From the IMG/VR virus record IMGVR_UViG_3300043392_000028, positions 1 through 31,101 of that record: a stretch of DNA of 31,101 bases; one strand, written 5' to 3'. Position 1 is the first letter of the stretch. Every line of letters starts with the position of its first letter. Position numbers and translations under genes: made by a program. The notes under the pieces were generated by a model, which saw nothing but the letters and a program-made list of their open reading frames with translations, had not been told where the DNA came from and ran no database searches. Shown piece by piece: positions 10,808-31,101 of the stretch. The DNA comes from a virus.

Positions 10808-11221
10808 TTAGTTTACTTGGCGGGTCTGACTTTTTTCTTTTTCCAGCGCCAACATAAGCTCAGAGTAATCCCTGCTTTTGCCAGTGCGGTAGAAGATAGA
10901 GAACTGCTCAGCAATGAGGTCCTCTTGGGTTGCTGGTTTTGTTTCACGGGTTGATACAAAATCAGCAATGTGTGACTTCTGGATGCAATCCTTATGTCCA
11001 CAGATCCTGGGCCCTGGTCTGTATAACTTCCCGTTTTTCATTGGGTTGTCATCCAGGTCAAAGTCTCCAGCCCATGGGACACACGGCTCACCGAACCCAT
11101 AGTCAATTTTGCGCTCCGAAGTGCGGCGGCACTCCTGGCAATAAAGGTGTTTGTTTTCCCTGCCCTCATTGATTCGCCACTCAGTGCAGCAAATTAGGCA
11201 TGTGACTACTTGCTCAGCCAT
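10808..11221 (-). CDS. Zinc-finger (HNH-like) protein of the replication operon
   Basis: A 137-residue protein from ATG 11221. N-terminal zinc ribbon: TCLICCTEWRI and YCQECRR. It continues with GEPCVPWAGDFDLDDNPMKNGKLYRPGPRICGHKDCIQKSHI, where C, CGH.DC and H form a second metal site. The 'C.PW.GDFD.......G....PG.R.CGH.DC...H' segment is typical of a group of actinophage proteins that resemble degenerate HNH domains. The end is basic and helical. I cannot say whether it cleaves DNA. ATG 11227 is an alternative start. It overlaps the helicase-loader candidate by 8 bp. Confidence 0.65.
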   Translation of the reverse strand: MAEQVVTCLICCTEWRINEGRENKHLYCQECRRTSERKIDYGFGEPCVPWAGDFDLDDNPMKNGKLYRPGPRICGHKDCIQKSHIADFVSTRETKPATQEDLIAEQFSIFYRTGKSRDYSELMLALEKEKSQTRQVN

Positions 11222-11612
11222 AGACATGCTCTTTTGCCCATAGTAGGAGAGCTGCATCATGCAAGTGAGCCATCTCATAGATCCTGCGGGTGCAGATCTC
11301 GCAAGTGGTCACTCTTTTACTGTGAGCTTTACAGATTGGCTCTGGGTCTCCACGCTTTACCTCTTCAGGCTGGTTGCGCTTTTCCTCACGGTCTAGTTTG
11401 TAGGCAGCCTCACGGGACCATTGCACAATGTGCCTTGGCTCCAGGTAGTTGATGGTTGCATCACGCCTGGCAAGCTTATGAGCCTCCCTGGCGATCTCAA
11501 ACGGGATGTTGGCAAGTATTGACTGCCAAACCTGCACCGTGCCTGGCTCAATGTGTCTCTTGTCAACGGCAGAGATCTCCTGGAGGAGCTGCGTTGTCTC
11601 TTTGATGTTCAT
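11214..11612 (-). CDS. Candidate replicative helicase loader
   Basis: A 132-residue protein from ATG 11612, which overlaps the previous stop as ATGA; a start at 11627 is possible. The N-terminal 70 residues (MNIKETTQLLQEISAVDKRHIEPGTVQVWQSILANIPFEIAREAHKLARRDATINYLEPRHI) follow the pattern of phage G39P/G40P-type helicase loaders: short helices, then 'W...L..IPFE.A..A', then 'P.HI'. The C-terminus has C-x8-C-x2-C (ICKAHSKRVTTCEIC). With the initiator and SSB in the same operon and no phage helicase, it would bring the host DnaB to the origin. Inference from pattern and position. Confidence 0.55.
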   Translation of the reverse strand: MNIKETTQLLQEISAVDKRHIEPGTVQVWQSILANIPFEIAREAHKLARRDATINYLEPRHIVQWSREAAYKLDREEKRNQPEEVKRGDPEPICKAHSKRVTTCEICTRRIYEMAHLHDAALLLWAKEHVYG

Positions 11613-12016
11613 AGTCTGGTGACCCATGCCTCTCTCAATGGGACCGCAATAAATTGCTCATTCTGTGTGTAAATCGTGCTTTTACTCACAATGGGAGAGG
11701 TTGCGGCTACCTCACCCTTGATGAAGATAACACGGTCCAGGGCGTGACTGCAAATTGAGAACCAGGAGTGAGCCACAGCAAACTTTAGTTTCCTGGCAGA
11801 GATGTGCACCGTGTCAAACGGAAAACGGCCACCATCCCAGTGATGCTTCACTTCAACCTCCCAGGATCTAGGTCCATCGGTCTCAATTAGGTCCACGCCA
11901 AACTGGTCTGGATTCACAATCGCATTGATGTCACGGGTCTTTAGGTATTTCATCACCGTGAGCTTTGCATTGTCATCCTGGTCATAGAGATCCTGGTCAA
12001 AGGGCTTCATTTTCAT
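11609..12016 (-). CDS. PD-(D/E)XK-type nuclease
   Basis: A 135-residue protein with the core of the PD-(D/E)XK fold: FGVDLIETDG (D42) followed by WEVEVKHHW, where E55-V-K57 is the E-x-K motif. Before it is a helix with VMKYLKTRDI; after it come strands with DTVHISARKLKFAVAHSWFSICSHALDRVIFIKG. It resembles small restriction- or resolvase-like nucleases that phages carry next to replication genes. The start at 12016 overlaps the initiator gene by 20 bp; an ATG two codons later is possible. The substrate is unknown. Confidence 0.7.
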   Translation of the reverse strand: MKMKPFDQDLYDQDDNAKLTVMKYLKTRDINAIVNPDQFGVDLIETDGPRSWEVEVKHHWDGGRFPFDTVHISARKLKFAVAHSWFSICSHALDRVIFIKGEVAATSPIVSKSTIYTQNEQFIAVPLREAWVTRL

Positions 12017-12701
12017 CCTGCTCCCTGGCCCAGCGATCTAGTGCCTCCCAGTCAGTGCCTTTGCGCTTAGGTGCACGCCTCTGCTCTGTGTTCATCCACT
12101 TCTGAAATGTGAGGTCCCAGGACTTCATGGGCTTACCAGTGCCAAGCCAGTAGAGCTTGAACTGCTCAATGTGGTAATCCATCTCAGGCAATAGAGAGGG
12201 CCACTTGGTTGAGAACATCTCAATGAGATCTTCACTTGGTGACCAATCCGCTGGCAACTTTGTTGCCCTGTTCTCTCTATTTGTATTCTCAAACTTTGTA
12301 TTCTCTAAACTTTGTATTCTTAAGAGAGTGCCCTGCGCCACTGTGCTTGCCTCCACTGTGCTTTGCTCCACTGTGCCCTGGGGCACTCTGGACAAATCAC
12401 TCAGCCTGTAAGTGTAAGTTGACCACTGGCCAGCGCTGTTTTTAGTTCTCTCTGCCTGGACCAAATTGAGATCCTGGAGCTCTTTGAGGGCACTTCTGAA
12501 GCCCTTAGGACCAAGACCAAGTTCTCTCTCTATCTGCGTGAACTTGACCTGGTAGCCAGCTTCATGTGTGAGTAGGTAGATCGCCAGCATCTTGGCGCTT
12601 ATTGAGATGGAGCCATCTCTAATGATTGCGTTGGGCACAATCGTAAAGTTTGACTCAGTAGTTTGGCGCTCTCTTTGAACGCCATGGGCATCTTCTGCCA
12701 T
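11997..12701 (-). CDS. Winged-helix replication initiator (DnaD/lambda-O-like replisome organiser)
   Basis: A 234-residue protein. Residues 15-100 are a winged helix-turn-helix: NFTIVPNAIIRDGSISISAKMLAIYLLTHEAGYQVKFTQIERELGLGPKGFRSALKELQDLNLV, typical of phage replisome organisers. A low-complexity linker follows (VPQGTVEQSTVEASTVAQGT, then LENTKFENTNREN, about 106-145), which is encoded by DNA iterons. The C-terminal part, ending SWDLTFQKWMNTEQRR, has the DnaD/DnaB_2-like 'W...F.KWM' signature. The ATG has GGAGG 6 nt upstream. With SSB, a helicase-loader candidate and RusA downstream, it would start replication at the iterons inside its own gene, as lambda O does. Confidence 0.8.
   Translation of the reverse strand: MAEDAHGVQRERQTTESNFTIVPNAIIRDGSISISAKMLAIYLLTHEAGYQVKFTQIERELGLGPKGFRSALKELQDLNLVQAERTKNSAGQWSTYTYRLSDLSRVPQGTVEQSTVEASTVAQGTLLRIQSLENTKFENTNRENRATKLPADWSPSEDLIEMFSTKWPSLLPEMDYHIEQFKLYWLGTGKPMKSWDLTFQKWMNTEQRRAPKRKGTDWEALDRWAREQDENEAL
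12280..12389. repeat. Two sets of three iterons inside the initiator gene: probable replication origin
   Basis: Set A: TTTGTATTCT at 12280-12289, 12295-12304 and 12311-12320, spaced 15 and 16 bp, in AT-rich DNA. Set B: CCACTGTGC at 12338-12346, 12353-12361 and 12368-12376, spaced exactly 15 bp. AGAGTGCCC (12325-12333) and GGGCACTCT (12381-12389) form a perfect 9-bp inverted repeat that brackets set B. The repeats account for the low-complexity linker of the protein. Iterons inside an initiator gene are the lambda O arrangement. Confidence 0.7.
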
Positions 12702-14588: not shown

Positions 14589-15479
14589 TCATTTGACAAC
14601 CAAAAACGGGGTCCCGCCAGAGCGTGAACGCCTCCAAAAGCGTGCAACGCCTCCCAGGGTCCCAGTCTTAGCTCTGCCCATCTCTGCCATCACCCTGGAT
14701 TTTAGCTCTGTAAGCCTCTGGGTGGCAATCTCAGACTGTCTCAGGGCCTCTAGGTAATCAGCGCCCAGGTTGCCTAATTCAACCTCTGTGTTGTCAATTT
14801 CAGGGTGAAGTTGTCTGATGGTCTCATAAGTCGAAGAGGAGCCATCCCAGTCTGGTTGTTTGCCAATCTCGCACTGGTAGAGAAAAGTCTTGACTAGCTC
14901 CAGGTCAATGCTTTGCTGAAACTTATTAGCCCGCAATTCAAACTCTAGGTATTCACGGCCAGAGAACAAAACGGCCACATAGGCCCATTCAAGGCCCAGG
15001 GTGTTTAGATACCACTGCACCTGGGTCTGATAGTAGGGCGGGACTCTAAGCTCACCCTGTTCATCAATCCAGTCATCTTTGTAGGCAGCGGTCTTGATCT
15101 CCAAAACCCCCAACTCACCATCACGGTCCAGTAGGGCATCTGGGTTGGCCAGTTGCCAGTCATTCTCTTTGCTAATCCATGTGCCCACATTGCGGAGGAC
15201 CTTCATCTCAGGATGGGAGTCCTCAAACTTGTCAATGACTGCACCCTCTAGCCTCCTGCCCCACTCCATGGCCTCAGTGTCTGGAACATGGTCTGGGATT
15301 TGGTTGGTGAACTTATAGAAGGCGGTCACTGCACTCTCCCACTTATTCAAGCCAGCGATTGTGCCAACCATTGAGCCGCCAATCCTGCCTTTGCGAAGTT
15401 CGTGCCATTCAGGCTGGGAGGAGTCAAAAGCTCCTGCAAAACGGGCGATTTGTATTCTGTTCGTTAGGTCCTCTATCAT
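14589..15479 (-). CDS. YqaJ/lambda-exonuclease-type recombination nuclease
   Basis: A 296-residue protein from ATG 15479. Motifs of the YqaJ family (PD-(D/E)XK fold): PEWHELRKGRIGGSMVG (23-39), MEWGRRLE (71-78, metal-binding Glu), NPDALL (D114), LEIKT (E127-x-K129) and YYQTQVQWY (139-147, the Q..Q..WY helix). It degrades one strand of duplex ends so that an annealase can pair them. It is the first gene of the replication operon, back-to-back with whiB. The frame stays open to 15533, but the ATG at 15479 lies 6 nt behind a -10-like TATCGT, so a leaderless start there is preferred. The last 40 residues are basic and less conserved. Confidence 0.9.
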   Translation of the reverse strand: MIEDLTNRIQIARFAGAFDSSQPEWHELRKGRIGGSMVGTIAGLNKWESAVTAFYKFTNQIPDHVPDTEAMEWGRRLEGAVIDKFEDSHPEMKVLRNVGTWISKENDWQLANPDALLDRDGELGVLEIKTAAYKDDWIDEQGELRVPPYYQTQVQWYLNTLGLEWAYVAVLFSGREYLEFELRANKFQQSIDLELVKTFLYQCEIGKQPDWDGSSSTYETIRQLHPEIDNTEVELGNLGADYLEALRQSEIATQRLTELKSRVMAEMGRAKTGTLGGVARFWRRSRSGGTPFLVVK

Positions 15480-15485
15480 GCTTTT

Positions 15486-15514
15486 ACGATAACTGAGAGG
15501 TCTGACATTGTTCA
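15486..15514 (-). promoter_or_regulatory. Candidate leaderless promoter of the replication operon, overlapping the whiB start
   Basis: On the minus strand TGAACA (15514-15509) and TATCGT (15491-15486) are 17 bp apart, and 6 nt separate the -10 box from ATG 15479, the same geometry as at the late promoter near 4823. The -35 box overlaps the TTG start codon of whiB, and the plus strand shows a TACGAT box at 15485-15490 in the same place. The boxes are weaker than those of the late promoter. Confidence 0.4.
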
Positions 15515-15792
15515 TCAATAAGAGTGCGCTCAACGCCTATTTAGAGCTGAGTAAAGCGATTGAAGCGGCTCCAGTTATCCCGCCATGTCAGAACACGGAC
15601 CCAGAGATCTGGTTTCAGGAGCATGGCACTGCAAGTTACAGAATTGCACGGGCGCTATGCAACCGTTGCCCAGTGCGTGCCAAGTGCCTGGAATACGCTC
15701 TGACCAATCAGGAGGAGTTTGGCATGTGGGGAGGGCTCTCACCTTTTGAGCGTAGGGCCCTTATGCGAAAAGGCCGCCAAACGCAAAAATAG
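15508..15792 (+). CDS. whiB: WhiB-family iron-sulfur transcription regulator
   Basis: A 94-residue protein and the only gene on the plus strand. The four cluster-binding Cys are present: C27, C51, C54 and C60 (CNRCPVRAKC), followed by the G-(M/V)-W-G-G turn at 72-76 (GMWGGLSPFERRAL) and a basic C-terminus (RKGRQTQK) for DNA binding. WhiB proteins are confined to actinobacteria and their phages; the phage TM4 WhiB is known to act on host whiB2 and to affect septation and superinfection. The start TTG 15508 has GAGAGG 7 nt upstream. Its 5' end lies against the replication operon and its 3' end meets the late operon terminator, so it sits between the two big transcription units. Confidence 0.95.
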   Translation: MFINKSALNAYLELSKAIEAAPVIPPCQNTDPEIWFQEHGTASYRIARALCNRCPVRAKCLEYALTNQEEFGMWGGLSPFERRALMRKGRQTQK

Positions 15793-19499: not shown

Positions 19500-20963
19500 C
19501 TATCCTAAATCACCAATTAGGCGATACTGGCCAGATGCTACTTTTACTAGCGTAACACCTGAGTATTGTGCGGCGGTTTTCAACTTGCCACCTTTGGATT
19601 GAATTGTTACTCCAGAGGCGCTAAATGTGATCTGCCCAGCCCCATCCTGGAGGAAGTCTACTCTTTCCCCAATCTGGAGGACATCGGGCACGGTCACGGT
19701 TATTGCGGATCCAGTAGAGCGGATAAATGTATTTTCATCGGCACTTACCAGAGTGTAATTGGCAGCTTTGTCAGAAACCGTGGTTGCCACCTGGGAGGCA
19801 TTGATTGCAATGGCCGCCTGGTTGATTGCCACGGTCTGAGTCCCAGAGTTGTAAGTTATTGGGCTAGTGGCGGCTACAACTCCCGTTGGTCCAGTTGGAC
19901 CAGTAGGACCCTGGGGTCCAGTTTCGCCTTGAGGGCCCTGAGGTCCAGTTGCACCAGTAGCGCCAGCGGGTCCAGTTGGCCCAGTCTCACCCTGTATCCC
20001 CTGAGGCCCCTGAGGACCTTCTGGGCCAGTTAGGCCCTGGATGCCCTGAGGGCCTTGATCTCCAGTGTCACCTTTGTCACCCTTAGGACCCTGGATTCCC
20101 TGGATTCCCTGAGGGCCAGTCTCACCTTGAGGACCTTGAGGACCAGTAGGTCCAACCTCACCCTGAGGACCCTGCGGCCCCTGAGGACCCGTGGCTCCCT
20201 GAGGGCCAACTTCTCCCTGAGGACCCTGGGGACCAGTCTCACCCTGGATGCCTTGAGCTCCCTGAGGACCCGTGGCACCCTGCAAAGCTAACGGATACCA
20301 GTGCTCTGATTCATTAGATGGGATCTCACCTAGATCTGGGTCTCCTGAGGCAAACCAAGAGGCGCTGTTATAGAAAACGGCATCATTCTCAACATAGTTG
20401 ACCTGAGCGCTCCAAGCGCCTAGCCAGTTGATTCCAGTGGCACCCGCTGGGCCTACTGGTCCACGCTCACCCTGAGGGCCTGTGGCTCCAGTTAGTCCAC
20501 GGTCTCCCTTAGGACCCTGCGGTCCATCGGCTCCAACTGGTCCCTGAATTCCTTGAGGTCCCTGCGGTCCCTGAGGGCCAGTGAGCCCTCTTGGGCCCTC
20601 AGCCCCTTCTGCTCCATTAGCTCCTGGAGCTCCAGACTCGCCTCTATCGCCCTTCTCACCTTTGTCACCTCTGGGCCCTTGAGCGCCTTGGATTCCCTGG
20701 GGTCCAGCTGGGCCCTGTGGTCCAGTTGCTCCAGTAAATCCTCTAGGACCTTGTGCTCCAGGCTCACCAGGTAAGCCACGGGGTCCAATAGGTCCCTGGG
20801 CACCTTGAGGGCCAGTGTTTCCAGTAGGGCCTTGAGGTCCCTGAGCTCCTGTTTCACCAGTATCTCCCTTTACTCCCTTAGCGGCGTAAAGCCTAAGGGC
20901 ATCCTGCGAGATGCGCTCAGTAAGTTGGCGATTACCGCCAGGCTCAATGATTTGAATTGGCAC
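19500..20963 (-). CDS. Collagen-like tail fibre with an internal carbohydrate-binding-like module
   Basis: A 487-residue protein. Residues 1-29 are a short head that would attach to the tail. Residues 30-176 are 49 uninterrupted Gly-X-Y triplets, and 229-360 another 44. Between them, 177-228 ([31 protein letters not shown]..., HWYPLALQG) has the W-x-G-x-W/Y...Y...D-x-V-x-Y/N pattern of CBM5/12-like carbohydrate-binding modules, known from phage fibres. The last 127 residues include a domain shared with the next gene. A trimeric triple-helical rod with a sugar-binding knob in its middle and globular ends is expected. It overlaps the gene before it by 1 bp. Confidence 0.88.
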
Positions 20964-30960: not shown

Positions 30961-31101
30961 TTAGGGTAAATCTTCTGGGCCCGTGAAGTTCTGGCCTCTT
31001 ACAGTTAGGACTGGTCCTAGCTCACCATTGTCACGGACTTCAATTTGGCGATAGTCTATCGCTCTAGCACTGCGGTCACTGATACCAAAACGCTCTTCAA
31101 T
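30961..31101 (-). CDS. MuF-like head morphogenesis protein, C-terminal part (second copy of the junction)
   Basis: This is the 3' end of the gene that begins at 790; only 14 bases (30961-30974) are new, the rest repeats 1-127. The end reads ...GELGPVLTVRGQNFTGPEDLP and TAA (complement of 30961-30963). The frame is continuous over the junction, which is direct evidence that both contig ends belong together. See the entry at 1-790 for the domain description. Confidence 0.85.
   Translation of the reverse strand: MEERFGISDRSARAIDYRQIEVRDNGELGPVLTVRGQNFTGPEDLP
30975..31101. repeat. Terminal overlap of a circular contig (right copy)
   Basis: Exact copy of 1-127. If counted once, the genome is 30,974 bp. 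Confidence 0.95.

Follow-up and report, generated by a model that had tools for sequence, protein, structure and literature searches.

Repeat arrays in an initiator gene

We found two sets of short repeats inside a replication initiator gene of a virus. The DNA analyzed, referred to here as the window, is the complete virus record of 31,101 bp. It has a 127-bp direct terminal repeat (positions 1-127 and 30975-31101), as expected for a genome that is complete and either circular or terminally redundant. Features of the locus are listed in Table 1.

Table 1. Features of the initiator locus, with positions in the window.
Feature	Position	Strand	Basis or remark
Small protein gene, two genes downstream of the initiator gene	11214..11627	-	Beside the initiator in relatives too
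Replication initiator gene, 234 aa (winged helix at the N terminus, then a disordered linker and a DnaT-like domain at the C terminus); contains the predicted origin	11997..12701	-	
N-terminal winged-helix domain, residues 1-100; putative iteron binder	12402..12701	-	PHROG initiator matches, AF2 model, iterons tracking the N domain
Disordered linker segment, residues 109-141, pLDDT below 50	12279..12377	-	Coincides with both arrays
C-terminal DnaT DNA-binding domain, PF17948, residues 148-212	12066..12260	-	Pfam E 2.7e-7, above gathering score
Upstream half-iteron AGAGTGCCC (GGGCACTCT on the plus strand), outer edge of the lattice	12381..12389	-	Sequence
Iteron 1, GCACAGTGG	12368..12376	-	
Iteron 2, GCACAGTGG, 15 bp from iteron 1	12353..12361	-	
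Iteron 3, GCACAGTGG, 15 bp from iteron 2	12338..12346	-	
Downstream half-iteron GGGCACTCT	12325..12333	-	Relatives have a half-iteron CCG here, ahead of the AT-rich element
AT-rich repeat 1, AGAATACAAA inside TAAGAATACAAA	12311..12320	-	
AT-rich repeat 2, 16 bp from repeat 1, in another reading frame	12295..12304	-	
AT-rich repeat 3, 15 bp from repeat 2	12280..12289	-	
Candidate unwinding element	12279..12322	-	22% GC over 44-45 nt, lowest-GC stretch of the gene

The PHROG matches of the gene product are initiation proteins. In an AlphaFold2 model, the winged helix and the C-terminal helical domain were confident and the linker segment between them was unstructured. The best fold matches in the PDB, both weak, were the primosomal DnaB of Geobacillus (5wtn, E 2.5e-3) and domain 1 of RctB. 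With its DnaT domain, the protein also resembles primosomal proteins of the DnaT/DnaD type.

Read on the plus strand, three copies of TTTGTATTCT (at 12280, 12295, and 12311; spacing 15 and 16 bp) are followed by three copies of CCACTGTGC (at 12338, 12353, and 12368; spacing 15 and 15 bp), with AGAGTGCCC (12325-12333) and GGGCACTCT (12381-12389) as bracketing sequences. The gene is on the minus strand, and the order in the coding direction is a half-iteron, three GC-rich iterons (GCACAGTGG) at 15 bp, another half-iteron, and three AT-rich repeats (AGAATACAAA) at 16 and 15 bp. The two triple sets had been described in an original prediction made from this DNA, and their positions and spacings were exact. 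The brackets noted there are also present. However, they are better described as half-iterons in the same 15-bp register, and a four-copy family with this period spans 12328 to 12391.

The arrays stand out in the window. Exact 9-mer triples (spacing within 30 bp) occur in three places in the 31 kb, the two arrays and a collagen-like gene, and there were none in 200 dinucleotide-preserving shuffles. The collagen-like gene (19500-20963, minus strand) encodes a protein with G-X-Y repeats in the tail region and is the only other strong source of tandem repeats; that gene aside, the initiator gene contains the two best tandem arrays in the window. We found no second repeat cluster or second origin in the window, and no DnaA box (TTWTNCACA). 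A lone fourth exact copy of AGAATACAAA, at 15449-15458 (minus strand) in a gene for a YqaJ-like exonuclease ~3 kb from the arrays, is probably there by chance. Cumulative GC skew said little about an origin because nearly all of the genes in the window are on one strand.

Relatives of the initiator

We searched IMG/VR and INPHARED for relatives, using the initiator gene, its domains, and the neighboring gene as queries. A DNA search of INPHARED with the initiator gene region gave no match, and neither the C domain nor the neighboring gene gave relatives in scans of the genome collections. By tblastn, the N domain matched 80alpha (4e-6) and phiPsal1 (2e-21), and TP901-1 was linked through the N domain of 80alpha (2e-16). 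The sample consisted of 61 initiators that share less than 70% identity; 32 have the N domain of the window (type A), 28 have a second class of winged helix (type B), and the last is that of lambda. Fourteen further relatives from INPHARED (the later sample) were fetched once the rules described below had been seen. N and C domains recombine freely, and DnaT-type C domains occur with both classes of N domain. The scores used to locate iteron lattices and the anchors of the AT-rich repeats favor the expected pattern, so scores for single genes are biased. In contrast, counts over fixed regions, that is, the linker-lag test and the number of WAAGAANA copies, are unbiased.

Conservation of the iterons

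The periodicity of the linkers is conserved within each class. In the 32 type A linkers, self-matches at lags of 15, 16, and 30 bp exceeded those in all 100 synonymous-codon shuffles, as did self-matches at lags of 11, 12, 21, 22, and 23 bp in the type B linkers. There were no lag peaks in the N-domain stretches of either type, nor in the C-domain stretch of type A. The type A iteron is a 10-bp near-palindrome, CC-N6-GG, plus 5 bp; the window and phiPsal1 have a 9-bp version, CAC-W-GTG. Positions 3 and 8 of the dyad co-vary (39/53 compared to 24.9 expected), in a lattice search that favors palindromes and so biases absolute symmetry upwards. A palindromic lattice at 14-16 bp was significant in 11 of the 14 initiators of the later sample.

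Similarity between iterons tracks the identity of the N domains when the C domain is held constant (partial r 0.42, P 0.002). In contrast, there was no relation to C-domain identity when the N domain was taken into account (r 0, P 0.46). Recognition of the iterons by the winged helix would produce this pattern. The expectation that iterons would be conserved in related phages while the linker drifts was borne out across the relatives. The contrary case, a linker with neither repeat set, was mostly absent: most relatives carry both sets, and genes that encode only the winged helix keep the arrays.

The arrays are cis DNA

It is possible in principle that the repetition is in the protein, with a low-complexity linker (GTVEQ STVEA STVAQ; ENTKF ENTN) that grew by slippage and DNA repeats as a by-product. 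A period of 15 bp corresponds to five codons, and the GC-rich set in the window encodes a five-residue repeat. In addition, lag 15 by itself is frequent in the synonymous shuffles (12.7/32). However, the AT-rich copies are out of frame with one another (16, 14, and 17 bp) and encode different peptides. The lags of 16 bp, and of 11, 22, and 23 bp in type B, are likewise out of frame and thus cannot be caused by protein repetition, and the iterons keep their dyad symmetry.

Two Streptococcus phages separate the arrays from the linker altogether. In Javan83 and phiNJ2 the initiator has ~106-110 residues and is a winged helix only. The palindromes and the AT-rich region follow the stop codon and are noncoding (L208:1243-1400 in Javan83; L218:1224-1400 in phiNJ2), and the arrays are therefore separable from any role in a linker. 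We regard protein repetition as extremely improbable, and as a sole explanation it is refuted by the reading frames and these noncoding cases. Based on the out-of-frame AT-rich copies, the excess over synonymous and AT-matched nulls (below), and the noncoding cases, the arrays are cis DNA. The arrays do coincide with the low-complexity linker, as had been noted. However, building a linker is not their purpose; the linker is what remains once cis DNA is translated, which accounts for the variable, repetitive linkers of these initiators. Separately, phiNJ2 has two perfect DnaA boxes (TTATCCACA, at 1210 and 1463), one on either side of its array region.

Conservation of the AT-rich element

Type A initiator genes have an AT-rich repeat with the consensus WAAGAANA, of which AGAATACAAA in the window is a variant. 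The repeat is oriented with respect to strand, recurs every 15±1 bp, and lies 3' of the iterons at a fixed register. The 32 type A linkers contain 70 copies, compared to 23.8 expected from synonymous shuffles (maximum 35 in 300). Copies in at least two reading frames were found in 14 genes (2.0 expected, maximum 6), and no antisense copy was found in any of the 32. The excess was threefold when the synonymous null was matched for both AT content and protein (66 compared to 20.6; maximum 32). The distance from the first of three iterons to the AT-rich element is 53 nt in 13 lineages, the window among them, and 38 nt, or one 15-bp unit fewer, in three; the register modulo 15 is the same in 16 of the 24 well-scored lineages. 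In nearly all lineages the element is the 44-nt stretch of the gene with the lowest GC content (26% vs. 51% on average).

Triples at 15-16 bp were also found in the later sample: the repeat is TAAGAA in Paracoccus phage Pyei1 (16 and 15 bp), LL-H (16 bp), and phiEF-1.1 (16 and 16 bp), and TP901-1 has AT-rich repeats at 15 bp. Relatives that deviate are REQ2, Flavobacterium phage tant8-1, Tank, and PaV-LD (14-bp lattice). As a possible element of the DnaA-trio/DnaD type, we counted TnnT opposite the purine-rich strand; it was enriched in type A (369 vs. 294) and not in type B, counts to which coding periodicity may contribute.

Type B initiators follow the same two-part plan with different sequences. 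Copies of GGGGTGACA at 21-22 bp are followed by AACCMTTA at 11-12 bp, about half the iteron pitch (L014, L012, L031, L036, L038, and others), and in 19 of 23 lineages the distance from the last iteron to AACCMTTA is 23 nt. The class of AT-rich motif goes with the class of N domain, whatever the C domain, and the motif is found in phages whose hosts are Actinobacteria, Firmicutes, and Alphaproteobacteria. The presence of two iteron sets had been thought unusual. We found instead that a two-part plan is the rule in this family of initiators, and that only the GC-rich set consists of classical iterons.

The conserved AT-rich motif, with a pitch similar to that of the iterons, might be a second iteron family that some other protein, such as a host factor or a helicase loader, binds in duplex form. 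We consider this improbable. The motif follows the N domain, which points to that domain and not to an unrelated protein; it recurs in phages whose hosts have differing factors; and the window lacks a DnaA box. It is also possible that the AT-rich set is simply an unstable tract whose repeats have no sequence-specific reader. It is, after all, the lowest-GC stretch of the gene, and the AT-rich tract of lambda acts as an opening site that is not needed for binding of O to the iterons, with O contacting its single strand (PMC7466680). Yet a plain tract does not lead one to expect a threefold excess of one motif over an AT-matched null, in a single orientation and at phased spacing, nor a different motif at its own pitch and fixed distance in type B. 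On balance we find this explanation rather unlikely.

Comparison with known origins

Among the nearest relatives are ORF20 of Staphylococcus phage 80alpha and rep of Lactococcus phage TP901-1. Both have a homologous N-terminal winged helix and an origin inside the gene, and both have iterons with a CC palindrome at 15 bp followed by AT-rich repeats at 15 bp, the same order as in the window. The origin annotated in the 80alpha record overlaps its arrays. A suicide plasmid can replicate with no more of 80alpha than ORF20 and ORF21, and loss of ORF20 is not rescued in trans (PMC5499656). The lack of complementation points to an origin inside ORF20. There are differences: the C domain is Phg_2220_C in 80alpha and DnaT in the window, and the neighboring gene encodes a DnaC-like loader in 80alpha and a small protein without a clear family in the window. 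Still, the window has the type A features, namely winged-helix homology, palindromic iterons at 15-16 bp, and 3' AT-rich repeats at ~15 bp in a fixed register. Most likely it contains a typical in-gene origin of the 80alpha/TP901-1 type, ordinary in kind and clear in anatomy.

The iterons might also serve as an operator through which the initiator gene regulates itself, instead of or besides being part of an origin. The sites are inside the initiator gene, and initiators often repress their own expression. However, a phased AT-rich element at a fixed distance has no role in an operator, and the genetics of 80alpha indicate an origin in the homologous gene (PMC5499656). We judge an operator to be highly improbable.

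RepO of Pontimonas phage phiPsal1, which has a circular genome of 31,069 bp, has the closest N domain (42% identity). Its iterons are CCACTGTGG, four copies at 15 bp, and its AT-rich repeats are TAAGACCAA, three copies at 16 and 15 bp. It differs from the window in having another C domain, four iterons rather than three, and other letters in the AT-rich repeat. In SPP1, oriL lies in gene 38 and has direct repeats, bound by the initiator G38P, and an AT-rich unwinding element (PMC6316719); ORF20 of 80alpha is 26% identical to G38P (PMC5499656). SPP1 has a second origin, oriR, whereas the window has no second cluster.

The locus had been called a lambda-O-like origin, which is apt for the layout: in lambda the iterons are in the middle of the initiator gene and an AT-rich element is on the 3' side (PMC7466680). 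The iterons of lambda differ, being 18-20 bp long at spacings of 20, 24, and 23 bp, and we found no phased AT-rich triple there. The window protein has no Pfam match to Phage_rep_O (the lambda O domain), its O-like PHROG match is weak (E 2e-4), and its nearest relatives are 80alpha ORF20, TP901-1 Rep, and phiPsal1 RepO. The predicted origin in the window is lambda-like in layout and not in descent.

Duplex sites beside a repeated, oriented single-strand motif are also found in bacterial oriC (DnaA boxes with DnaA-trios; the DnaD element) and in RK2 (13-mers). These systems differ from the window in using other families of initiators.

A proposed origin and mechanism

We estimate a probability of roughly 0.87 that the arrays are a phage replication origin embedded in the initiator gene. 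Support at the level of sequence comes from the existence of the arrays, their conservation, geometry, strand orientation, and independence of coding, and the co-variation of iterons with the N domain. The original prediction, in which a winged-helix initiator carries its origin within its own gene, is supported. The arrays are most likely an initiator-binding array and a structured unwinding element. This retains the earlier suggestion of GC-rich sites bound by the initiator and an AT-rich site of unwinding, and drops that of a second iteron family.

We propose that initiation would proceed as follows. The N-terminal winged helix would bind the GC-rich, near-palindromic iterons at their 15-bp pitch, a step for which support is strong. 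Assembly would then spread toward the 3' side of the gene and destabilize the AT-rich triple, the putative unwinding element, at its fixed distance. Less surely, one strand of the melted triple might be recognized in a sequence-specific manner, by the same initiator or by a loader. We propose reading of a strand because the AT-rich motif is conserved, always in the same orientation, and phased. Finally, the DnaT-like C domain and the small neighboring protein may help load the host helicase. One-strand reading of the triple by a protein would have precedents: the initiation protein DnaD, which has a winged helix, recognizes a single strand (PMC10201434), and a plasmid Rep binds one strand of a repeated DUE (PMC10797057).

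In-gene phage origins are known (lambda, SPP1, 80alpha). Our comparison suggests that there is a sequence-specific strand reader in a large family of initiators. The pitch of the AT-rich repeats equals that of the iterons (15-16 bp, type A) or is half of it (11-12 vs. 21-22 bp, type B). We tentatively raise the possibility that the initiator assembly on the iterons also reads the AT-rich element, as a strand-specific code, with a filament of initiator that extends from the iterons in duplex form to a single strand of the element as it melts. If so, this phase rule would be the phage counterpart of the DnaA-box/DnaA-trio system. As a family-wide rule it seems undescribed; in the open-access literature we found no description of the two-array layout in this family. 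The anatomy (palindromic lattice, fixed gap, and oriented triple) could allow origins to be predicted from sequence in many uncultured phages.

Neighboring genes

A conserved small protein with the motif DATINYLEPRHI.SW is encoded close downstream of the initiator in the window and in relatives (the neighbors in L002-L031). That it is a helicase loader is a weak guess, as the matches to such proteins are weak. No phage DnaB-like helicase was recognized in a non-systematic look at the ORFs of the window. A small gene at 15508-15792, WhiB-like with four cysteines, is apparently the only gene of the window on the plus strand; phiPsal1 also has an annotated WhiB gene close to its origin.
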